Below, piece after piece: positions 19,491-38,744 of a stretch of 64,000 bases of DNA (its first letter is position 1; each line of letters starts with the position of its first letter). The translations under genes were made by a program, and so were the position numbers. A model generated the notes under the pieces. The model saw only the letters and a program-made list of their open reading frames with translations. It made no database searches and was not told the DNA's origin. This DNA is from Muricea muricata. Lineage: Eukaryota > Cnidaria > Anthozoa > Malacalcyonacea > Plexauridae. The stretch is taken from NCBI GenBank assembly GCA_963855995.1, contig OY979716.1, positions 41,501,818-41,565,817 on the forward strand, given 5' to 3'.

Positions 19491-21198
19491 AATTATTTGA
19501 TGCTCTCGATATTGGCTTGATTAACGAACCGGACCTCCTACCACATCATAGATGTGCTGCGCACACTCTCAACCTTGTTGCAACTACTGATTCAGAATGC
19601 ACCTAGTTAGGTACCACATATAAGAAGAGTAGTCGATCAACATTTGCGAAGTGTCAAGCCCTGTGGAACAAATATGGTTGCACAACCTCTGCTAGTGAAA
19701 TTGCGGCAAAAGAAGCTGGTTTGCAACTTATTGGCCTTGTGCAATGCGCTGGAATTCAGTGTTTGATGCAGTCGCTTGTCTCAATCAGCCTTGTTGTGAA
19801 AAAGGAAATTCTTACTTAAATAACTTCTGTCATGGCTTGGATCTGCCACGATAAAAAAATCACTAAAATGAGCTTGAATGGTATATTTACAATTTTTCTG
19901 CGTCTTCCGTTTTTGCCTTAGCGGTGAAAATACGTCAGTTAGCAACTTATAAATTATAACAATTAAATGGTTTTAATAGGCTAATAGCTAATACAGTAGG
20001 TAATTGCTGACAATAGGTTTAGCGTAGGCTTGCCCAACAATGACAGAATAGAAATTAATTTAAAAAAAAAACAAATTACATTTATCCTTAAAGAATGGAG
20101 CTGAATTGGTGCTCCTCAAGTCCTATGAGCGCATTATGAAGCCACTGGCCCAGGCACTAGACATCTTTCAAGGCGACAAGAACACATCGTTTGGATTTCT
20201 TGTGCCTACCCTTGAAAGGCTAAAAGAAAAACTTAAAAAGCAACAACCACGGTTGATAGGAAAGAAGAGTGTCTGTACTCCACTGGCAAATGCAATTCTT
20301 GATGGGATTACAAAAAGATTTTCAGGAGTTCTGACTGATTCTAAGCCAATTGCTCCTGTAATTTTAATTCCATCATTAAAGAATCTATGGACAGAAAACA
20401 AATTTTGTAACCTTCAGACTGATGTTTTTGAAATAGTTATCTAATTCTTAACATTACCAGAAATCTAAGACAACATGGCGACCACGCACGCAAGATAATT
20501 CAGGTAATCATAATGGTGTCCAAATAGGAGTGAGTTACATAGGAAAAAGTATAAAATTTGAAATTGTATTGCTGTGTAGCCTGCCTGTGGTTTGCCAACC
20601 TCTTAAACGAAACATGCAATGCGACCTTACAATCAGAAGTGGTTTTTCTTTTTATTGGGTAAATAAACAATCTGCCTTTTATGCTTATAGTGAGACCTTT
20701 TTTGCCCTATATAAAGCCTTACATTGAAAAACCGTCAAATCACCACCTGTTTGTCTTAACCGCAAAGTTCGTACTGAAGAAATTCAAAGTGCCGACCTCC
20801 AAAATTGTTCATCGTCTAGTTATTAAACAGCTCTAAAAAGCAGCTTGTAAAAACTGTTTCGCTTCCTGCCAATGTTTTTGCAAAATGCCGTATCTTTTGA
20901 TGAGAGAAACAGAATTTATTTGACAATTTCATAGCTTCTTCTTTGACATTTCTACTTTTTGGATGCCATGTTTGTTCCTGTACTGAAGAAGTACTTCGTG
21001 TGGGTGTTTGTGTTGCAATTCATTTTGCTTAGAAGCTGCTGATCAATTGCATTGTGGGATTTTAAGATGTCATCGCCTTGAGTGACCTTGAAGTAAAAAA
21101 ATTTGAATATAAATTGAATATCAATTAATCTGCCTTTGTCTTATATAAGATAGATTTTCAATTGCTTTATGTTTTCTGATCCCTTATCACCTCTGCAG

Positions 21199-23082
21199 AA
21201 GATAAAGAAACCATTGAACATGTATTGCTCCTATTGGACAAGTTTTGTGCAAGTGACAAATTGTACCATGAACTTACACTTGCTTATGATGATTTGCCCT
21301 GGTCGTACTTGGTAAAACAGAAAAGATCTGAACTAAATAAACTATTTCATGTTGAGAAAGTACCTGGTCAAAATTCCTGGAGAAAAAATATCATTTTCAG
21401 AAACCCTTAAAGATCACATAAGGGATTTCCTTAAATCACATCCAGATCACAATGTAACTGATGATCCAATAAAGGTTAAAATAAGTGCAGATGGTGCAAA
21501 AATGTCTAGAACAACAAATTTTATGATCATATCATTTGCTTTACTGCAAGCAGGAAAAAGTGTAATGTCCTCCAGAGGAAACAGGACAGTTGCAATTGTA
21601 AATGGCCCTGAAAAGTTTATTACTCTGGCCTCATCCTTTGCTACAGTCATAAATGATATCAATTCTTGGGTTTCACTGGAACCTTTTTCAGTAATTCTGA
21701 GTGGGGGTCAACCCAAAATGTATTGATGATTGTACTGCACTGGAGCAAGCAAATCTCACGAAATTGCACACATTTTTGCTGGCAAACACAAGGTCAACAC
21801 ATGCAGTGAAAATTTTTTCAGTCTGATGACAGTGTATCGATTTGGGGTTGACCCCCAGTGAAATTTATGACGTCACGTGAAACCCAAGAATAGCGTTATT
21901 AAAAATAGAAAAATAAATGTGGATGGAAAGGACATTCTAGTCGAAATAATTTTAGGAGGGGATTATAAATTCTTTCTCATGGCCATGGGGTTGAGAGGGG
22001 CAACAGCAGATTATTCTTGTCTATGGTGTAAAATCCATAGGTTGGAAAGATGAAATATGAGCAAAGATTTGGACTATTACAGTACAGGAGCATTGAGAAC
22101 TCAATGAATGCCATGATTAAAAAAAGGTTTTGCTGTTTTCAACCTCCACTTTTTTCTATTGATCTTGACCACATGTCATGACCACATTTTGGATGAATTG
22201 CATTTGATGCTGAGGATCTCAGACAGGCTGACTGAAAATCTCATCAAAGAAGTCATGGGGCATGATAGTAAAGCTTATTTTCTAAAGAAATGTGGTGAAC
22301 CAGTTTACTTGAACAAACTAGTAGCTGTTATTAATAGCCAAGGTATATCATTCTCAGAGTGGGAACAATCCAGTGCTGATAGAAAAGAGAGTGGCAGATT
22401 GGACCAGTTTGGTAGGATCCGAAAAGAAGAAACTCATTAATTTACTACCGGATCAACTGGAGATAAATGATATCCTGTTTCCCGAAACAAAAGATACTGC
22501 TGTTAAGCTTTGGCAGGATTTTGGCTTTCTTTATCAGTTGATTAACCAATCTTCAGACAACAATCCTAAATTATATTTAGATGTTTTTTCAAGGGCACGA
22601 GGGTTAATCTATTTTGCTCCCAGGGAAGTTCTAGAATTGGTTACAATAAAATTGGCTCCATACATGCATCCCCTGGCCTACCATGTACCTGTATTTCTTA
22701 AAAATCATTCGTCATTCAAACAATTTACAAGTCAATGGTGTGGAAAAAACAATGATGATGCTGAAAAGGTTTTTTTCCAAAATCTAACGAATGGGATGGT
22801 GCGCGTGATGTTTTCCTGCATAAAGCCAGGCAAATAGCACTTAAACATAATGAACATGACAAAAGAAGATATGATAAAAAGGATGACAATTATTGGGGCA
22901 GTGGAATAGTCAATCAGAGAAAAAAGAGAGCAAAATCATCTAGAAATCACATTTTAGATGAAATGCAAGGACAAGAATTGCCTTCATCTTTGCAAAGAGA
23001 AACTGGCCCAAACTATAAAGAACTGACCGTGCAACAACTAAAAGACAAAATTAAATCAAAAGAATTAAATGTGAAGGATTAA
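21199..23082 (+). pseudogene. Transposase-like protein (SADGAK / LWCKIH / DELHLMLRI family)
   Basis: After an acceptor (CTCTGCAG, 21198) the frame reads LLLDKFCASDKLYHELTLAY, then one frameshift near 21360. The conserved part follows: VKISADGAKMSRTTNFMII, SFALLQAG and NDIN. A 226-bp MITE interrupts here (21664-21889). It resumes with ILVEIILGGDYKFFLMAMGL, ADYSCLWCKIHRLER, HILDELHLMLRISDRL, SRARGLIYFAPREVLEL and a basic tail ending KELNVKD. I remember this family as abundant uncharacterised proteins in coral and fish. The acidic residues in SADGAK, GGDY and DELH are candidate catalytic sites; that is inference. Stops near 22050-22130 and frameshifts near 22400 and 22790 break it. Confidence 0.6.
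21664..21889. mobile_element. Nested palindromic MITE, 226 bp
   Basis: TCTTGGGTTTCAC at the left is the complement of GTGAAACCCAAGA at the right. A second inner inverted pair is GGGGGTCAACCC with its complement near 21850. AT flanks both sides (21662-21663 and 21890-21891). Removing the element and one AT restores an uninterrupted reading frame in the host gene, which confirms the boundaries. Confidence 0.85.
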
Positions 23083-23924
23083 ATATGAATTGATGACAAT
23101 GACAAATTTTTCCAATGGTGTCAATGGGGCCTTGTCCAGTACCCCATCTTCATTAACCACAAAGCATGTGGATGTGAATCCTAACTTCATCCTTATTTTT
23201 ATAGGAAAAACAACCTTCACACCTTGTCCCAATGCATCAAGGTAATAATCCCAGAACTGTGAAAGACCTAAATTACTAAAGTCTTGTTTGTCTTACAACA
23301 TGAACTTGTCATTTGGTGATGCTCGGCCTTTATTCTTGAGAACAAATCGAATGTCCTGATCTATGCACACTGTCTCAGTAAATCGCAAATGCACAAATTT
23401 ACTTTTTGACAAAGAAAGTACAGCTTCTGAAAAAATGACAGCGGCCCTTTCTAACCAATCACTTGAAATTTTTGGATGAGAATAGCTTCTATATAACAGT
23501 AAAAAATGATAGTATAGATTTAGTCATCAATGTGTAAATTGATGCACACTGAACAAAGGGTAGAACCCTATAATAGCTTAAAATTTCACTTTATGTTTCA
23601 TTGTTACATAGTGCATAAAACTGTTTAATATTTGTTCGACTGTTCATTTAACTGTTACATAAGTAATTGACTCATATAGTTTTTTAGTTAAAATCTCTTC
23701 AGACTGTATTAACTGGGAAAACTAGCTACTAGACCAAAATGACATTGAGTAAGATTCTTATTCATTATAATTTGGCCAACTTTAAAAGTGGCTGCCACTG
23801 TCATGGAATCTACCATAAAGTACACATATACTGTAGTCTGTATGTACCTAATTGCTTCAGCATTCAAGTTCTCTGCTGGTTCCCAATTGCACGACCACAT
23901 CGGCCAGCCTTTCCATTTTATTAA

Positions 23925-24172
23925 AGAGGGGTTACAGTCCATTCTGCGCATCAGTTCTGCTCATCACAAAGGTGGGCCACCAAATATAAACATTGTCCAA
24001 ATTTCACATTTTCCAAACTCTTCTTGAATTGAAACTCTGGTTTACATTCTCATGTATAAGCATAGAAAACCAGAAAAGTGTCCGATATTCATTTAGTAAA
24101 TCATATTTTACGAATATAGAATTTCAAAATGTAAACAAAGTGTTTGTTTACATTGCAGACTGTAACCCCTCT
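23925..24172. mobile_element. piggyBac-like MITE (TTAA target), 248 bp, inside the chromodomain exon
   Basis: The ends AGAGGGGTTACAGTC and their exact complement are flanked by TTAA on both sides (23921-23924 and 24173-24176). Taking out the element and one TTAA restores an unbroken chromodomain reading frame, so the boundaries are firm. There is no transposase inside. TTAA duplications are characteristic of piggyBac and of Kolobok. The short 15-bp ends do not distinguish them. Confidence 0.92.
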
Positions 24173-24325
24173 TTAAATATTCAACTCCCTGGCAAAATGA
24201 AGAAAGGTACATTAAACTAAAGGGTTTTTTTCTGGTAAAGATGAGTTGCTTGCTATATATATAAAGTTCATATATTTAACTTTGCAGAGCAAAATTGAAA
24301 CCCGAAAAGGCTTTTAGGAGGTCTA

Positions 24326-24391
24326 ACAGCATTAATAGTCAAACAGCATTAATAGTCAAACAGCATTAATAGTCAAACAGCATTAATAAAT
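24326..24391. repeat. 17-bp tandem repeat, about four copies
   Basis: ACAGCATTAATAGTCAA is repeated directly about four times, nearly perfectly, immediately before the palindromic MITE at 24393. It lies in the intron of the chromodomain gene. Confidence 0.85.
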
Positions 24392-24392
24392 A

Positions 24393-24774
24393 GACCATTT
24401 CCCTTCTAGACAAACTTTTGAATTAGTAATATTCATTAGCACAGCTGGAAAGAGCATCCTAAATTTATTAAAGTGGTGAAGTTTGGTTGCAAAATATTGT
24501 GAAATGTGGAAAGTATAGTCCTGTGAAGTTTGCAAATTTTGTATACTTTTGTATTACGTGCGGAAGAGTGTAATCAGAATTCGAAATGTGATGACACTTT
24601 TCCACGCATAATACAAAAGCATACAAAATTTGCAAACTTCACAGGGCTATATTTTCTACATTTTACAATGTTTTGCAACCAAACTTCACTATTCTACTAA
24701 ATTTAGGATGCTCTTTCCAGCTGTGCTGATGAATATTCCTAATTCAAAAGTTTGTCTAAAAGGGGAATGGCCCA
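24393..24774. mobile_element. Large palindromic MITE, about 382 bp
   Basis: Arms of about 150-170 bp are inverted copies. They begin GACCATTTCCCTTCTAGACA and carry TTTGGTTGCAAAATATTGTG and GTGAAGTTTGCAAATTTTGT with their complements. A spacer of roughly 60 bp separates them. There is no coding sequence. It lies in the intron between chromodomain exons 1 and 2. A decayed single-arm copy lies at about 26640-26900. Confidence 0.85.
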
Positions 24775-25215
24775 TTACTGTTACTATTCAAATTTGAAGC
24801 TCTACATAGGCTGACAAAAGGAAATAATTTTTCAAAACAGTCTGTCAGTTGTCACTAATTTAAATCCCGTGTTAAAATAGACTTACTTGTTTAGTTTCTC
24901 TGGTGGAAATCACTCTCCGAACATCGTGCATTTCCCTGCCAACTCTTTTCACTGTTTTCTTTTTCTGTTGTACGATATCGGCCATGCTTAACTCGTTCAA
25001 TTCCTTGTAATTTACTCGACATTTTCTTGTTGTTCTGCCTGAAACAGCCACTATTTTGAAACCCCAATTGAAGCGCGCATGGTCAAAGAGATTTGGGGAA
25101 TAACGCATGCCAAATGTATCGTGGCAGCAAAATGTCTTAGATTTCTGGTAATGAGAAGCAGCATTCTAGCAAAATGCTGCAATTATCATCCATGATTTCA
25201 ATAGCTTTTTTTACA

Positions 25216-25660
25216 TGTTTCAGGATTGGAATATATTAGGACTTCCATTCCCAGTCATGTTGAAGAAGCAGTCTCAGGCCCAAACGATGACAACAGTGAT
25301 GACATGATAATTTTTTTGCAACTAAGTAACATTCAACATCATCACCCCTGGAACGTTACCTTGCTTCAGACATTGATAATGCTAGCATTTTTAATGGAAA
25401 TGCTGCACCTTTGGAGAGATTAGCTCTTAAGCTCAATACCCCATTACCAGCCAGTGCAGCAGTTGAACACTTGTTCAGCTGTGGAGGTTTGGTAATGTGG
25501 TCTCACAGAAACTACCTTACTGATGATAACTTTGAGTCCTGTTTACTTCTCAAGTTAAACGAAGTAATTTCATGTGTGCGGAATATTAACTGTGAGAAAC
25601 AGCGTTCAGTGAAAATTAGTAAATGTTATAGATTACAAGTAGATGATTGTGTTAATTAAT
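25216..25660 (+). pseudogene. hAT transposase, C-terminal dimerisation region
   Basis: After a TGTTTCAG acceptor at 25225 two frames continue the interrupted hAT protein. The key block, LALKLNTPLPASAAVEHLFS, is followed by CGGLVMWSHRNYLTDDNFES and LLLKLNEV. This is the hAT C-terminal dimerisation signature of ZBED-like proteins. A frameshift occurs near 25400. It is separated from the rest of the protein by the 4.7-kb nested element. Confidence 0.75.
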
Positions 25661-29247: not shown

Positions 29248-30393
29248 CAGACGCGGCGTGGCTATCAAATTGGGACCGGGAGATAACGTTCTAGGGGCCC
29301 ATTTTTAAGCGGGAGGAGGTGCTGGTGAAGAACAATTGTATCTTTTTATAATAACTTTTGCAAACACGTTGTATTCGAAATTTTGTGAATGGTGCCACCA
29401 ACTTTTATTACATGAATTTTAAACTTAATTATCATAAAAGATTTTCATGAAAAGGATTGCTACAAATAGTCAATGTTACTAGCTGTCAGTGGTCTCCAAA
29501 TAATGAAATTTTTCTTCAAAGTAGTTGCACTATTTTACAGTGTCCGTCTGCGTGTTTTTTTTCAACATGTGACTCGTAAGATGATCTTTGTTAGATGGCC
29601 AAAAACCTTTTTAATTCTTTTGACGTTGATGCTAGCTTATCAACAACTTTTGCAAGCGACACTCTATTTAGAATGTCACTCTCTACGCTAATTAGCATTA
29701 GGCTGTCCAAATTCTCTTGGCTCAGAGTGGATCGCAGCTTTGTCTTGATTAGCTTCAACTTTGAAAACGATCTTTTGCATTCCACTTGAGTAATGGCCAA
29801 AGTCAGCAGGAAATGATAAACTGTGTATAACTCTGAGTATTATGTGCTGTTCAGGCTGTATTGATGAAGAACTTTGTATGCACAAGTAAAACACGCTTTG
29901 CACGTTTTGCTGTTTTCTTTGCACGTCGAGACATCGTTTTTTTCTTCATCGCCATCGTCTTCTCACTCTTCCCCACTGGCAAGGATCTCGAATTCCTCTG
30001 GAAGAGACATAGCGAGCCTCTTGTATGAACCCACAAAACTTTCCAGCTTCGTCCGCAGAAGCTCTCTGTTAACTCTGTCTCAAAGAAGTTCGCAAACTTT
30101 GCTTGCGGCAGACGAAGGAATTCCTGCCTGTTTCAGCTCATTGAACCTTCTTGGATCAAAGCAAGCGAAATCTTTGTAGATTTTTTCATGATTTAGGAAT
30201 CTCTCCTTTGCTTTTATTGCTTCATAAGTGAAAATTAGAATCAGACTAGCAGGCGCAGATATTACAAATAATTTATTGATTTTGACTAAAGAAATTGGGG
30301 AAAATATTGCTTGTCTTGGGGGCCCACAAGCTACAAATTTTTGGTGGCCCACCGGAAAATCTCCCGGTGTCCCGGTGGGCCACGCCGCGCCTG
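29248..30393. mobile_element. hAT element, 1146 bp, perfect 8-bp target duplication
   Basis: The ends CAGACGCGGCGTGGC and GCCACGCCGCGCCTG are inverted with one mismatch. GTAGTGAT flanks both sides (29240-29247 and 30394-30401). It is inserted in the third 112-bp unit of the left Penelope arm. It carries a shortened minus-strand transposase, so it is a deletion derivative. Confidence 0.93.
29591..30250 (-). pseudogene. Deleted hAT transposase (TTF/ZMYM type)
   Basis: The N-terminal segment (about 30250-29850) includes YKDFACFDPRRFNELKQAG, then SSAASKVCELL, with a frame break. The C-terminal segment (29800-29591) reads VECKRSFSKLKLIKTKLRST and LSQENLDSLMLISVES, the hAT dimerisation motif. The RNase-H-like core between them is missing. 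It is therefore a non-autonomous internal-deletion product. Confidence 0.7.
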
Positions 30394-30628
30394 GTAGTGA
30401 TGCATATGTGTTCTGATTAGTGGGTCCTGGCAGGTGGTTATAGGGGTACTGTACTGAATTCTCCATGTCCTCGGGAGGGAGGAAGTTGTAGAAGGAAGTC
30501 TGTTCTTCTTGTGGGTGGGTGGGTTGCTGGCTGGATGTTATTTTTTTAATTGATGTGATTGGTGTTTGCTTGTTTAGGTTTGTCTTAACAGATTGGTCTG
30601 TTCATGTATGGGGAACAAGAAGGTCATG

Positions 30629-33340
30629 TTAAGTAGAGTTATCTGTCCTAAGTTTTGTTGATACTAATGTGTGTTTAAGAGTTTTGTTCTTTTTGTATGC
30701 TACAACAGGTGGTTCTGGCCAGAGGATCTGTAGTTTGGGGTCATTTTGAATCAGAGTCCAGTGTTTTCTTAGTATGTGTGCAATGTATTTGGTGTTGTTG
30801 TTGTATGTTATGGGGAAGATAGGCCTGTTGTTTGTTTTGTGGGTTGTTTGCATGCTAAGTAGTTCGTCTTGTGTGTTGTATTCCAATGCCTTGTTGAAAG
30901 CTGTTACTATAGTATCATATTTATATCCCCAATGAATGAGTGCCACAAGTAGGTGGTTAAGTCTTTCATGAAGTTTACTGTTATCACTTATTATGCATCT
31001 GCATCTTAATAGTAGTAGTAATAATAGTAATAATAGTATTGTTCTGTCTGTAGATTTGATATATAAGTCTGATTCAAATTTGTTGTTTGAATTAGTGTAG
31101 ATCGTTGTATCTAGGAAATTAACAGTTTTACGTGAGTATGTAGAACCAAATTTAATTGTTGGGTGGAACTTATTAATGTATGTCAGAACTTGTTGTAGTT
31201 TTTCAATGCCATGGGTCCATATTGCAAATATGTCATCAATGAACCTTATCCATTCAATAGGTATAAGGCCATTGGGAGCTTTCAAAAGAAGTTCCCTTTC
31301 TAGTCTTGCCATGAAGATGTTTGCATAGGTTGAAGCCATAGGTGACCCCATGGCAGTACCATAAATTTGTACAAAGTGTTCATTGTTAAATGTGAAGGCA
31401 TTTTTAGTCAATATATGTGTTAGTAATTCAATTATGTACTGTTCCAATTCTGATGTTAGTGTGCTGTGTTCTTTCAACATATCTAAGCAGGCCTGGATGC
31501 CCTGGTCATTCGGTATGTTGGTGTAAAGGCTTTTAACATCAATGGTGATTAGTATGATGTTTTCAGGGAAATTCTGATTAAGTGAGAAGATTCTATGGAG
31601 GAAATGTGCTGTGTCCTGTATATATGCTGGGATGTGATTAAGGAGTGGTTTGAGGAAGTGATCTGCAAATTGAGATAATTTTGCTGTGGGACCCCCACAA
31701 CCAGAGATAATGGATCTGCCTGGAACATTCTGTTTGTGGATTTTTCATAGTAGATATAAGTGTGGAGTTCTGGCTGTTGCATCAGTTGTGAGAAATTTAT
31801 GGTTCATGTTATCTATTATCTTAGACTTGTGAAGGTTGTAGGCTTGTATTTTTGTATCTTCTAATATATCTGGGGTTGGATCCTTTTGGATCTTTTGGCA
31901 ATGCTTTGAATAATTTAATTGTCTAGATGCTTCCTTCAGATAAAAGTCCTTAGGCCAAATGACAATAGCCCCTTCTTTTTCTGCTGGTTTGACTAACAAA
32001 TCATTATCTGTTTTGAGCTGATGTAGTGATTGTATTTCTTGTTTTGTAATGTTGGAATGTGGGGGGTTGGTAGTTATCTGATAATTAGTCTTGAAGTCAT
32101 AATAAACATTAGAGATGTATTCCTGAAGGTTGCTATTGTCTGGTATTGGTGCTGTAGAGTTTGTGGGGAGTTTGAATGGGTGTTTCGTATTTATTGTGGT
32201 GTGTCCGAAAAGATATTTATTGTACATATTTCTTCTGTATTTTAGGAAGGATTTATAAATGTTGTTGTATGGAGCTGGTTTAGGGGTGGGAATATAGTTG
32301 AATCCTTTGGATAGTGCTGTTACGTATGGTGGGAGAGTCTTTTATAAGATAGATTAATGATTGTTGTTGTTGTGGTGTATTTTTTGTGTATTTTGTTTTT
32401 GCTGAGAAATCAATTGTTGTTATTGTTATGTCGGGATTTAGCAAAAGTTAGCATTGTTCTTTTGTTGTAGTTATTGAGGTAGGTGTAGTTAGTGTTAATA
32501 TTAGTGTGCTGGCTCACTTCTTGTGCTTGGGTGCTTTGTGATTGAGAAAATTTTGTATTTGTGACTGTATGTTATATGTGAGTTGTGGTGATATATCATT
32601 CATAGATCTGTTAGTGGGTTTATTATGTTTGTGTGCTAAAGTTAAGTGTGCCTGTGTTCTAGAGTTGTTTTACTGTGAGGTTAAGCTGGGGGTCAGAGGG
32701 TTCCTGGGTTGATGTGGGAGGGGAGGTATGTGTAATTTTGGCATATGTGTAGGTGTGTTTAGAGCTGTGTTTAATTGTGCCATCTGATGAGTTGTGTTGA
32801 TTTGCATTAGTGGTGTGAGTGCAACCTGTTGTGTTGTAGGTGTTCATGTGCTCGCTATATGTTGTTGTTTGTTGTGGATAAGTAGTTGACAGGAATCTAT
32901 GGTGGGAGCATGTGTGTGCCTATTTGTGGGTGGTGGAAGTTGTGCACCTCTTGATAATAGTGTGCCCAAATCTACTGTAGATTTCATGGTGCTGTTGGGG
33001 AAGGCTGGTGTCTTTAGGTCATAAGTAGTTATTGTGGGTGTGATGTGTCCTTGTTGGTTTTGGGTTCCCATGGTGCGTTTAGGTTGTCTATTGTTAATTC
33101 TTTTTATGCATTTTGTAGCTTTTTCTGCGCATTGATCAGTGCTCGTTCTGTGTATTTGAGAAACAGTGAATCTGTTTTCTCAATAATTTGTCGTGCCGTG
33201 TCTTCATTGCATTTTAATTTAGATTGTTGTGTCCTGTGTTGAAATTTGTGCTTTGTGTCATTAATGCAGTGTTTGTGGTGGTCAATAGTGATGTTCAGTA
33301 GTTCAAAGGAGGCTTCTGTCAGGGTGTTCTCCTAGCAATC
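30629..33340 (-). pseudogene. Penelope-like reverse transcriptase, left copy
   Basis: N-terminal coding pieces (33071-32659) are followed by LVKPAEKEGAIVIWPKDFYL (about 31980). Later blocks are ITIDVKSLYTNIP (motif A, about 31510-31545), GTAMGSPMASTYANIF (about 31340), WIRFIDDIFAIWTHG (motif C, about 31235) and VNFLDTTIY. The C-terminal part has RPIFPITYNNNTKYIAHILR and WPEPPVVAYKKNKTLKHTL. The IDV, FIDD and FLDT signatures and the C-terminal HW..DP..WP..P block are those of Penelope RTs. I see no GIY-YIG endonuclease after the stop at 30629. Breaks: a frameshift near 31745 and a (TAG/TAA)n microsatellite at about 31012-31046 replacing about 20 residues. Confidence 0.75.
31012..31046. repeat. 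Trinucleotide microsatellite inside the RT gene
   Basis: AGTAGTAGTAATAATAG-type triplets read on the minus strand as a run of ten leucines. The right copy has ordinary sequence here (HNNSFHPQSC in one frame), so the repeat is a copy-specific replacement. Confidence 0.8.
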
Positions 33341-33375
33341 ACTGAGTCCTTTGTCCAAACAGCCAAAACATTGCA

Positions 33376-33597
33376 GGATAGTAATTTTCAATTGTATACA
33401 ACGTTAATAGAATAGTCAATCTTATTCATATACAACGCTTGTAGGATAGTGGATCTGATTTAAATAACGTTTATAGAATATATACTGAATATCAAAATAA
33501 TATGATCACTGGAAACTCCAGGGTAAGGTGGTGTTGTGTATGTCAACAGGGCAAGTTAGCCGATCCTATTTGCAAGGTAATACACTGTAAGGACATG
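33376..33597 (-). repeat. pLTR repeat, copy 2 (central)
   Basis: About 222 bp nearly identical to 28570-28797 and in the same orientation. It lies exactly at the axis between the two inverted Penelope copies and ends near TAAGGACATG. Confidence 0.85.
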
Positions 33598-33788
33598 TAA
33601 CCTTATACTATACAGCATGCCTAATTTGTGTCATTATTTAATACAGTTGTTCCCTATAAAACCACCCCAAACCCGGACCAACCCTCCACCACCACCCCAC
33701 AAAACCCCGACCAACTCCCACCACTACCCTACGGAACCTTGACCAAATTCCCTTATTTATTCAGAGCAATTCTGATGACGATGAAGCC

Positions 33789-36700
33789 TTGATTGCTAGA
33801 TTGTTTCATGAGGCTGAGATAACAGAGGAATTCAACTTCGATGACAGCATCCAACTAGAAAAAATCAACTTTGACAAACTCCTTGGCATGCACATAGATT
33901 TAATGACTGATGGCAACCTACCAAATGACACAAACAACCCAGAGGAAACAACCCATAGATACAAAACAACAGGCAAATACAATTAACACAAATAACAACT
34001 TTGATACACTAACATGTAATGAACTGATAGACAATACCACACTAGACATGCATGAACAGAATGGCAACACTGTACATACAGACCAACAGATTCCCTTGAC
34101 TTCCAGCACAAATGACCCACATACACATATCAACAACAACAAAATCATCCCAACTTGATACCACAACGAAACACAGACAATCCCCTCCCCAACACACACG
34201 GCAAAGATGACTTCTTCAACATACCATCTAACCTAGTAACCTCTTTTAAAATAATTTATGCACTAAAATTGAAATTGAACAAACTACAAACGAACCTGAA
34301 GTTGTCTTCAAGAACATGAAACAGCCAAAACATTGCCCCATGGACTAAGAATAAAACTTACACCTAAATTCTACCTGGACAAAGGACTCAGTGATCGCTG
34401 GGAGAACACTCTGACAGAAGCCTCCTTCAAACTACTGAACATCACTATTGACCACTACAAACGCTGCTTTAATGACTCAAAGCACAAATTTCAACACAGG
34501 ACACAACAACCTAAATTAAAATGCAATGAAGACATGGCACAACAAATTATCGAGAAAACAGATTCACTATTTCTCAAATACACAGAACGAGCACTGATCA
34601 ATGCACAGAAAAAAACTACAAAATGCATAAAAAGAATTAACAATAGACAACCAAAACACACCATAAGAATCCAAAACCAATAAGGACACATCAAACCCAC
34701 AATAACTACTTATAACCTAAAGACACCAACCTTCCCCAACAGCACCATGAAATCTACAGTAGATTTGGGCACACCATTATCAAGAGGCGCACAACTTCCA
34801 CCACCCACAAATAGGCACACACATGCTCCCACTATAGATTCCGGTCAACTACTTATCCACAACAAACAACAACATATGGCGAGCACATCTACACCTACAA
34901 CACAACAGGTTTCACTTACACCACTAATGCAAATCAACACAACTCATCAGATGACACAATTAAACACAGGTCTGAACACACCTACACATATGTCGAAATT
35001 ATGCATACCTCCCCTCCCACATGAACCAGGAACCCTCTGCCCCACAGCTTAACCTCACAGCAAAACAACTCTAGAACACAGGCACACTTAACATTAGCAC
35101 ACAAACATAATACACCCACTAACAGATCTATGAATAATATATCACCACAAGTCACACATAACATACAGTCACAAATACAAAATTTTTTCAATCACAAAGC
35201 ACCCAAGCACAAGTAGTGACACAGATCACTAATAATAACACTACCTACACCCACCCCAATAACTACAACAAAAGAACAATGCTAACTTTTACTAAATCCC
35301 GACGTAACAATAACAACAGATTTCTTAGCAAAAACAAAATACACAAAAAATACACCACAACATACAAAATACAACAATCATTAATCTAATGAAAGACTCT
35401 CCCCCCCATACAGTAACAGCACTATCCAAAGGACTCAACTATATCCCCACCCCTAAACCAGCTCCATACAACAACATTCATAAATCCTTCCTAAAATACA
35501 GAAGACATATGTACAACAAATATCTTTACGGACACACCACAAGAATACGAAACACCCATTCAAACTCCCCACAAACTTTACAGTACCAATACCAGACAAT
35601 AGCAACCTTCAGGAATATATCTCTAATGTTTATTATGACATCAAGACTAATTATCCGATGACTACCAACCCCCACGTTCCAACATTACAAAACAAGAAAT
35701 ACAATCACTACATCAGCTCAAAACAGATAATGATTTGTTAGTCAAACCAGCAGATAAAGGTGGGGCTATTGTCATTTGGCCTGAGGACTCTTATCTGAAG
35801 GAAGCATATAGACAGTTAAATGATTCAAATTATTACCAAAAGATCCAACAGGATCCAGCCCCAGATATATTAGAAGATACAAAAAAAACTAGCCTACAAC
35901 CTTCACAAGTCTAAGATAATAGATAACATGACCAAAAATCCACAAACAGAATGTTCCAGGCAGACCCATTATTTCTGGTTGTGGGGGTCCCACAACAAAA
36001 TTATATCAATTTGCAGATCACTTTTTCAAACCACTCCTTAATCACATCCCAGCATATATACAGAACACAGCACATTTCCTCCACAGAATCTTCTCACTTA
36101 ATCAGAATTTACCTGAAAACATTGTACTAATCACCATTGACGTTAAAAGCCTTAACACCAACATACCAAATGACCAGGGCATCCAGGCCTGCTTAGATAT
36201 GTTAAAAGAACACAGCACATTAACATCAGAATTGGAACAGTACATAATTGAATTACTAACACATATATTGACTAAAAACGCCTTCACATTTAACAATGAA
36301 CACTTTGTACAAATTCATGGTACTGCCATGGGGTCACCTATGACTCCAACCCATGCAAACATCTTCATGGGAAGACTAGAAAGGGAACTTCTTTTGAAAG
36401 CTCCCAATGGCCTTGTACCTATTGAATGGGTAAGGTTCATTGATGACATATTTGCAATATGGACCCATGGCATTAAAAAACTACAACAATTTCTAACATA
36501 CATTAATAAGTTCCACCCAACAATTAAATTGATTGTACATACTCACATAAAACTGTTAATTTCCTGGATACAACGATCTACATTAACCCAAACAACAAAT
36601 TTGAATCAGACTTATATATCAAACCGACAGACAGAACACTACTATTGCACAATAACTCTTTCCATCCCCAATCATGCAAAAACTCAATAATTTACAGCCA

Positions 36701-37085
36701 GGCATTAAGATACAGATGCATAATAAGTGATAACAGTAAACTCCATGAAAGACTTAACCACCTACTTGTGGCACTCATTCATCAGGGATATAAATATGAT
36801 ACTATAGTAACAGCTTTCAACAATGTATTGGAACACAACACACAAGACAAACTACTTAGTATGCAAACAACCCACAAAACAAACAACAGACCTATCTTCC
36901 CCATAATATACAACAACAACACCAAATACATTGCACACATACTAAGAAAACACTGGACTCTAATTCTAAATGACCCTAAACTACAGATCCTCTGGCCAGA
37001 ACCACCTGTTGTAGCATACAAAAAGAACAAAACTCTTAAACACACATTAGTATCAACAAAACTTAGGACAGATTACTCTTCTTAA
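33789..37085 (+). pseudogene. Penelope-like reverse transcriptase, right copy
   Basis: The 5' part encodes an acidic leader (MIARLFHEAEITEEFNFDDS) and, from 34333, LRIKLTPKFYLDKGLSDRW. FLKYRRHMYNKYLYGHTT follows at 35480. The RT core is spread over frames up to 36200 and then open: FTFNNEHFVQIHGTAMGSPM, WVRFIDDIFAIWTHG, and finally RPIFPIIYNNNTKYIAHILR and WPEPPVVAYKKNKTLKHTL. Stops at 35661, between 35700 and 36190, and near 36690 show decay. It lacks the leucine-run microsatellite of the left copy. No GIY-YIG domain follows, so an endonuclease-less or truncated PLE is indicated. Confidence 0.72.
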
Positions 37086-37171
37086 CATGACCTTCTTGTT
37101 TCCCATACATGAACAGACCAATCTATTAAGACAAACCTAAACAAGCAAACACCAATCACATTAATTATGTG

Positions 37172-38450
<1,279 letters not shown>

Positions 38451-38744
38451 CCCCCCCACCACTAGGAAGTGGATGAGAAAAACCACCTGCCATGACCCAC
38501 CAATCAGAACAATATGCATCACTACCAACTTTGATAACACAACCATTATGTATGTCTCGACTGCACATGGATTAAGAAGTGGATGAGATAAACTATAAGT
38601 CACAATGATTTTTCAAATAGAGTGAAATGTTTTTTTATTTGGAATACTTTTACACATATATATCTATACTTAATCATAGCTGAACACTTTATTAGGAATA
38701 TTCGACCACATACATTACACATATTTATCAATATCATGCTGATA

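Follow-up and report, generated by a model that had tools for sequence, protein, structure and literature searches.

Genes and features at the locus

The window analysed here is a stretch of 64,000 nucleotides of the cnidarian Muricea muricata (assembly GCA_963855995.1, contig OY979716.1; C1:41501818-41565817 in the contig names used below). Between positions 20452 and 25153 it holds a decayed copy of a two-gene DNA transposon, in which terminal inverted repeats (TIRs) enclose two genes lying tail to tail, one for a transposase-like protein and one for a protein with a chromodomain. The original prediction had outlined this element and proposed that a cut-and-paste type of transposon carries a separate, spliced and convergent chromodomain gene. 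The features of the window copy are given below; copies a and b are two further copies described in the next section.

20452..25153, no strand: whole element, decayed copy; flanking bases A/A; ends set against copies L030 and L031 at unrelated sites
20452..20472, plus strand: left TIR, CATTACCAGAAATCTAAGACA
25133..25153, minus strand: right TIR
21033..23082, plus strand: predicted RAG1-like transposase gene, broken; from tblastn with the copy-a protein and reading frames
22921..23076, plus strand: SAP-like C-terminal region of the transposase; from tblastn with the copy-a C-terminus
24887..25054, minus strand: chromodomain gene exon 1, coding for the N-terminus and first chromodomain strand; from tblastn, donor site and frame
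23847..23924, minus strand: chromodomain gene exon 2 (KWKGWP..WEP); Pfam Chromo E 4.5e-6, and tblastn
23065..23523, minus strand: chromodomain gene exon 3 region, with a conserved domain of about 130 aa and one stop

An inverted-repeat scan of the window paired arms at 20447-20472 and 25133-25158 (26 nt, 92%). The 18-mer put forward in the original prediction as the terminus occurs in exactly two places of the 64-kb window, in inverted orientation; the chance expectation is 0.09 at up to three mismatches. The element ends, CATTACC...GGTAATG, lie where matches to two other copies stop, at 20452 and 25153. Because the copy comparison stops at these same ends, the predicted coordinates were correct and the two TIRs are those of a single element.

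The plus strand of the element contains the SADGAK and DELHLML frames, and the copy-a protein matched at 21033-21122, 21149-21193, 21189-21371, 21370-21693, 21889-21960, 21949-22881, 22887-22958 and 22921-23076. The transposase is thus spread over a number of frames and interrupted by stops; near 21194 it lacks some 650 bp of N-terminal sequence that copies a and b retain, and the catalytic E of the family is not in frame, as judged by eye. On the minus strand, exon 1 has a residue other than Met where copy b starts, exon 2 loses its 5′ part to a nested repeat at 23921-24176, and the exon 3 region is 79% identical to copy b over 147 aa (23523-23089, tblastn). Since the transposase lies in several frames, an N-terminal stretch is missing and three repeats are nested in the element, the window copy is, to judge by its sequence, a dead relic.

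Copies and related families in the genome

The species' own genome (453 Mb, 74 contigs) was searched with the full element (20452-25153), 40 of 5155 first-look candidates being scored. Two further full-span copies were found, copy a (C1:120272996-120277838) and copy b (C1:99210176-99215155). The window copy is 78–89% identical to these in aligned pieces, and copies a and b are 96% identical to each other over most of their length and 91% near the right end. The left end of copy a has one mismatch. The transposase part of copy a matched at least 135 places, which merged into at least 86 loci; this is the yield of 121 scored out of 265 first-look candidates, and the count of loci is a lower bound.

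A more distant family, represented by L063, comprises three copies of 4947 bp with about 46% protein identity to the window family. L062 matches L063 at 99.8% identity over 4947 bp, and in both the transposase frame is open for 800 aa; the frame in the third copy is 580 aa. Because near-identical copies with open frames are present, the L063 family has evidently moved recently. Further related groups are represented by L064, L065 and L066. The same inverted ends occur at unrelated sites in three copies of the window family and three of the L063 family. Both ends were readable in eight elements, and CAT stands at both in seven of them, the right end of copy b being degenerate; among single ends, L046 starts with TAT. 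Several copies with common ends and both genes convergent, as the original prediction had anticipated, were therefore present in the form of copies a and b and the distant families. The tail-to-tail arrangement recurred in these copies, but the overlap of the 3′ ends that had also been described is peculiar to the window copy (open reading frames 22765-23082 and 23065-23292); elsewhere the two frames are about 175 bp (copies a and b) or about 590 bp (L063) apart.

A distant transposase group, with a C-terminal Cys/His tail resembling a zinc knuckle, was also recovered (L081, L084, L085 and L086, at C1:46966802, C1:110207785, C1:117024417 and C2:45929527). Its members are 27–30% identical to L063, and the tail of L081 matched Pfam zf-CCHC_2 at E 0.013. 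A single-protein scan of viral and prokaryote contigs, sensitive to close relatives alone, returned no relative.

Identity of the transposase

A relationship to RAG1 was suspected first from motifs and was then put to profile searches. A profile of the catalytic part, built from 14 rows including the zinc-knuckle group, was compared with the PDB, and RAG1 accounted for 15 of the 16 sequences listed to E 10. The best RAG1 sequence had a whole-sequence E of 9e-5, and the sole other entry was a ribosomal protein at E 0.6. The RAG1 matches fell in two collinear stretches, one covering the second D and CxxC and the other PYxH....HVPE with the last E. When the zinc-knuckle group was left out, the resulting 12-row profile of the chromodomain clade gave RAG1 as 14 of the 17 PDB sequences listed, with a best E of 0.0019, the other three being at 0.32 or above. 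Because this profile still finds RAG1 first, the RAG1 signal is independent of the zinc-knuckle group. A profile of 19 family rows returned coiled coils and RAG1, with a best RAG1 E of 0.062. Among 14 members scanned, Pfam RAG1 was matched in two, L064 (E 4e-4) and L058 (E 0.0095), both in the chromodomain clade.

The predicted catalytic triad of L063 is D385, D466 and E734. Counted by eye over the alignment rows that cover each site, the motifs were present in 11/11 rows for the first D, 12/14 for the second D, 11/13 for C(2)C and 8/8 each for H(4)H and E. The C-terminus of copy a matched Pfam SAP at E 0.0023, below the curated cut-off. Among the same 14 members no Pfam EnSpm (Transposase_21) match was found to E 1, while RAG1 was matched there, and no Pfam Harbinger match was found in these members or in the L063 protein. 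Kyakuja-Dileera-Zisupton was dropped as a candidate on the lack of such a Pfam match in the members scanned together with the RAG1 result. On this evidence the transposase is a predicted RAG1-like enzyme of the DDE type, with weak similarity to RAG1. The original prediction, which had left it as a transposase-like protein of an undescribed element, is corrected in this respect.

The chromodomain gene

The opposite-strand gene downstream of the transposase in L063, L064, L065 and L066 consists of pieces of the same gene as in the window. It has three exons, whose GT/AG junctions coincide in copy b, L063, L064 and L065; in L066 the first acceptor is non-canonical and in copy a the first donor is changed. 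Proteins spliced by hand matched Pfam Chromo at E 9.9e-13 (copy b), 3.8e-13 (L063), 9.7e-17 (L064) and 2e-11 (L065). The match and the common junctions bear out the spliced chromodomain gene that had been predicted.

For the L063 chromodomain, the nearest solved chains in the PDB were LHP1, HP1, CDYL, CBX and Polycomb. At the three positions that form the aromatic cage of chromodomains, the residues read by eye were Y/W/W in copy b, F/W/Y in L063, F/W/Y in L064 and F/W/F in L065, so that the cage is complete in four of five families; in L066 it is Y/W/C, with one aromatic missing. The conserved C-terminal domain of about 130 aa had no Pfam match in copy b or L063, and Chromo was the sole Pfam match above noise in the spliced second proteins, with no match to Kelch or PHD. 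The second gene product is thus predicted to be a protein with one chromodomain of the HP1/Polycomb type and a conserved C-terminal domain, and it probably reads histone marks.

Linkage of the two genes

The last exon of copy b (exon 3) had 60 matches in the genome (73 of 73 candidates scored). The original prediction had named unlinked copies of either gene outside such TIRs as the contrary outcome. It was found instead that for 49 of the 60 matches the nearest transposase locus is convergent, at 2.1 kb or less, and for 11 it is not; random placement would give about 0.01 such pairs. The physical linkage of the transposase and the chromodomain gene is well shown, and the separate convergent gene was recovered both in further copies and in distantly related families. 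For eight elements in which both parts were readable, pairwise identity in one protein was correlated with that in the other (r 0.96, permutation p 0.0008; without copy b, 0.95 and 0.0018).

Insertion and target sites

Empty sites were found by joining the flanks at the CAT ends, and they are paralogous, not allelic. For L063 there was one empty site, GCAGCATGAA, which compared with the filled site GCAGCA/element/ATGAA gives a duplication of 1 bp. A 1-bp duplication was likewise read for L064 (three empty sites fetched of four found) and L062 (one found). L066 (three fetched of 33 found) gave 0 bp, though a run of A there could mask one bp. For the near-identical recent copy at C1:33804575-33809521, both empty sites found show a loss of 10 bp of target. 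The five insertions with empty sites therefore give 1, 1, 1, 0 and -10 bp and demonstrate insertion; the constant target duplication expected in the original prediction was not obtained. Among the 40 candidates scored of 1689, none was an empty site of the window insertion, copy a or copy b; the same base stands on both flanks of the window copy (A/A) and copy a (C/C), and copy b is unreadable at its right end. These sites are most simply read as strand transfer with a stagger of about 1 nt and an occasional deletion.

A TA target duplication (ATTA/CC...GG/TAAT) was ruled out by the CATG families and the empty sites, and CATG as a 4-bp duplication was ruled out by the same empty sites. The TA duplication of Tc1/mariner elements is accordingly absent.

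Chromosome bias

Contig C1, with 27.4% of the bases, holds 77 of the 86 transposase loci and 54 of the 60 chromodomain exon matches. As controls, a Gypsy reverse transcriptase had 51 of its best 150 rows on C1 (1674 candidates; Fisher p 1e-17 against 77/86) and a Tc1-like transposase 37 of its best 150 (1129 candidates; p 2e-23), the control rows not being merged into loci and both controls coming from the same window. The bias may reflect transposition to nearby sites, a long history on a single chromosome or targeting of chromatin. C1, C2 and C3 measure 124, 72 and 61 Mb, and the other contigs with a size shown are 19 Mb or smaller.

Interpretation and comparison with known systems

Taken together, these results suggest a family of two-gene cut-and-paste DNA transposons with a RAG1-like enzyme and near-flush insertion. 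We put the probability of this reading at roughly 0.8, a figure that does not extend to the docking role discussed below. The transposase would bind the TIRs, cut the element out and join it to the target with strand transfers about 1 nt apart, catalysis presumably being carried out by the DDE triad.

Several observations weigh against parts of this reading. Taken singly, the two RAG1 stretches have E 31 and 0.046 in the best RAG1 chain, and the Pfam RAG1 scores of 19.1 and 14.5 bits lie below the curated cut-off of 25. The 800-aa L063 protein alone gave no RAG1 in Pfam or the PDB, its matches being weak and mostly coiled-coil noise; Pfam RAG1 had no match in a search of the species' own genome, a result that is uninformative as the controls matched nowhere either. 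For the 1-bp duplication the evidence consists of three insertions, compared with empty sites that are paralogous. As to linkage, exon 3 has no match within 6 kb of 34 of the 86 transposase loci, and among the 34 strongest loci 14 have no convergent exon-3 match and 20 have one, counts of unpaired loci that are limited by an exon-3 query from the copy-b family alone. The correlation of 0.96 rests on three close pairs, with some overlaps short, and with one element per group it falls to 0.41, a value reached by 20 of 120 permutations. Because this group-level correlation is not significant, parallel divergence of the two genes is shown between close relatives alone and not at depth. Finally, the zinc-knuckle group is also biased (15 of its 21 best rows on C1), so that the bias is not assignable to the chromodomain.

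The PHD finger of RAG2 reads a histone mark and probably tethers RAG1, and the second protein of RAG1/RAG2-like transposons works with the transposase. PIF/Harbinger elements are likewise two-gene DNA transposons, but their second gene is of the Myb/SANT type and their duplication is 3 bp, both of which differ from the present family. In Gypsy elements, chromoviruses and others, a chromodomain at the end of the integrase is tied to targeted insertion (excerpt of PMC12477816); on that description these are long terminal repeat retrotransposons with a fused domain, whereas the present family is a DNA transposon with a separate gene.

In RAG-like (RAGL) transposons two convergent genes lie between the TIRs and the target duplication is 5 bp, according to an excerpt of PMC7204232, and the second protein of RAG1/RAG2-like transposons is described in part of PMC4411706 as Kelch-PHD, the PHD being that of RAG2. 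As far as those passages go, the present family shares with RAGL elements the convergent layout and a second protein that is a predicted chromatin reader; with RAGL/ProtoRAG and Transib it shares a RAG1-type catalytic region, by profile, and TIRs starting with CA. It differs in that RAGL/Transib TIRs start with CAC and these with CAT (one TAT), in a duplication of 1 bp or none in place of the reported 5 bp, in a chromodomain plus a domain lacking a Pfam match where the excerpts have Kelch-PHD, and in the weak SAP-like C-terminus of the copy-a transposase.

The chromodomain protein could serve as an accessory subunit; by docking the complex on histone H3 tails that carry methyl marks, it would steer where the element inserts. 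The targeting of heterochromatin suggested in the original prediction is likewise a hypothesis. Because RAG-like transposons share the layout with a Kelch-PHD second protein in the passages seen (PMC7204232, PMC4411706), we tentatively prefer docking, at slightly less than even odds, to a role against silencing. A bolder and rather unlikely extension would be a second, independent RAG1/RAG2-like design, in which a RAG1-related transposase works with a convergently encoded HP1-type subunit reading methylated H3 and integrates at 1-nt spacing into marked chromatin, confining the families almost entirely to the 124-Mb contig.

Alternatively, the chromodomain protein may protect the element by binding or displacing host heterochromatin factors, allowing escape from silencing. 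The same protein anatomy, with its Chromo matches and HP1-type relatives, would suit this role, and accessory epigenetic genes occur in CMCT (EnSpm-Mirage-Chapaev-Transib) and other transposons, the fungal TET/JBP genes having been proposed to act likewise (PMC12730594, in excerpt). The resemblance of the layout to the RAG1/RAG2-like transposons of the passages above (PMC4411706, PMC7204232) argues the other way, and we consider protection unlikely, though worth holding in view.

It is similarly doubtful that this is an ordinary family within one of the CMC superfamilies already described (EnSpm, Chapaev or Mirage), which may have a Repbase entry and carries a chromodomain gene by chance. In the available part of PMC12730594, the CMCT group (EnSpm/CACTA, Mirage, Chapaev, Plavaka, ESTA, Lanisha) has C(2)C and H(3-4)H motifs between the second D and the E, and the present family shares C(2)C and H(4)H and the 5′-CA..TG-3′ termini. 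The same text gives target duplications of 2–5 bp, outside which the values of 1, 1, 1, 0 and -10 bp fall, and its description of the group holds no chromodomain second gene. The Transposase_21 result given above, with RAG1 matched in the same members, also counts against an ordinary CMC family. A chromodomain gene in such an element is undescribed in the open-licence PMC literature, in so far as none of the matches listed there was a DNA transposon with a chromodomain gene or a 1-bp duplication; an uncommented Repbase entry may exist. Should the family belong with the CMCT group, nearly flush integration would widen the range reported for it.

That the chromodomain gene is a captured host gene carried as a passenger is improbable. 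Chromodomains like that of HP1 belong to host proteins, the gene contains introns, and the parallel divergence between groups is not significant; against this, the same gene recurs with the same position, orientation and intron places across transposases at 30–52% identity. Because groups at that distance share the gene, any capture would be ancient and the gene would have been kept. The reading that there is no transposon, with TIRs from two unrelated repeats and genes as chance neighbours, could draw on the repeats nested inside the stretch, but it is refuted by further copies in which the same ends enclose both genes at other sites, and by the empty sites of five relatives.

V(D)J recombination derives from RAG1/RAG2, a transposase encoded tail to tail with a partner that has a chromatin-reader domain. 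The presence of a gene for another kind of reader next to a RAG1-like transposase suggests that such pairing may have arisen more than once, and it could explain how such elements choose their landing sites. The near-intact copies provide material in which the role of the reader is testable, and these families could account for many uncharacterised animal proteins, as the original prediction proposed for those of cnidarians and fish.

Nested and neighbouring sequences

Three repeats are nested in the window copy and two pieces flank it, as follows.

21664..21888, no strand: nested insertion with inverted ends ATTCTTGGGTTTCAC; copies a and b lack it
23921..24176, no strand: nested insertion, its ends being 19-bp inverted repeats TTAAAGAGGGGTTACAGTC; copies a and b lack it
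24389..24776, no strand: nested palindromic high-copy repeat, resembling a miniature inverted-repeat transposable element; from inverted-repeat scan and genome search
20064..20444, plus strand: left flank, apparent hAT transposase fragment; no Pfam match of its own, assigned by eye and via the right-hand piece
25330..25659, plus strand: right flank, frame resembling a hAT C-terminal dimerisation region; Pfam Dimer_Tnp_hAT E 0.014, below cut-off

The element thus sits between pieces of an apparent hAT transposase, which it interrupts. The repeat at 24389-24776 is a near-perfect palindrome some 390 bp long; tens of copies, most of them 84–93% identical, are spread over many contigs. Further along the window, two reverse transcriptase copies in opposite orientation (PKIHKQNVPGRPIISGCGGP) occupy 30080-37085 and look Penelope-like by a motif, and 37082-38612 is taken up by an extended simple repeat, translated in several frames as (GWLA)n from one strand and as (PASQ)n from the other.

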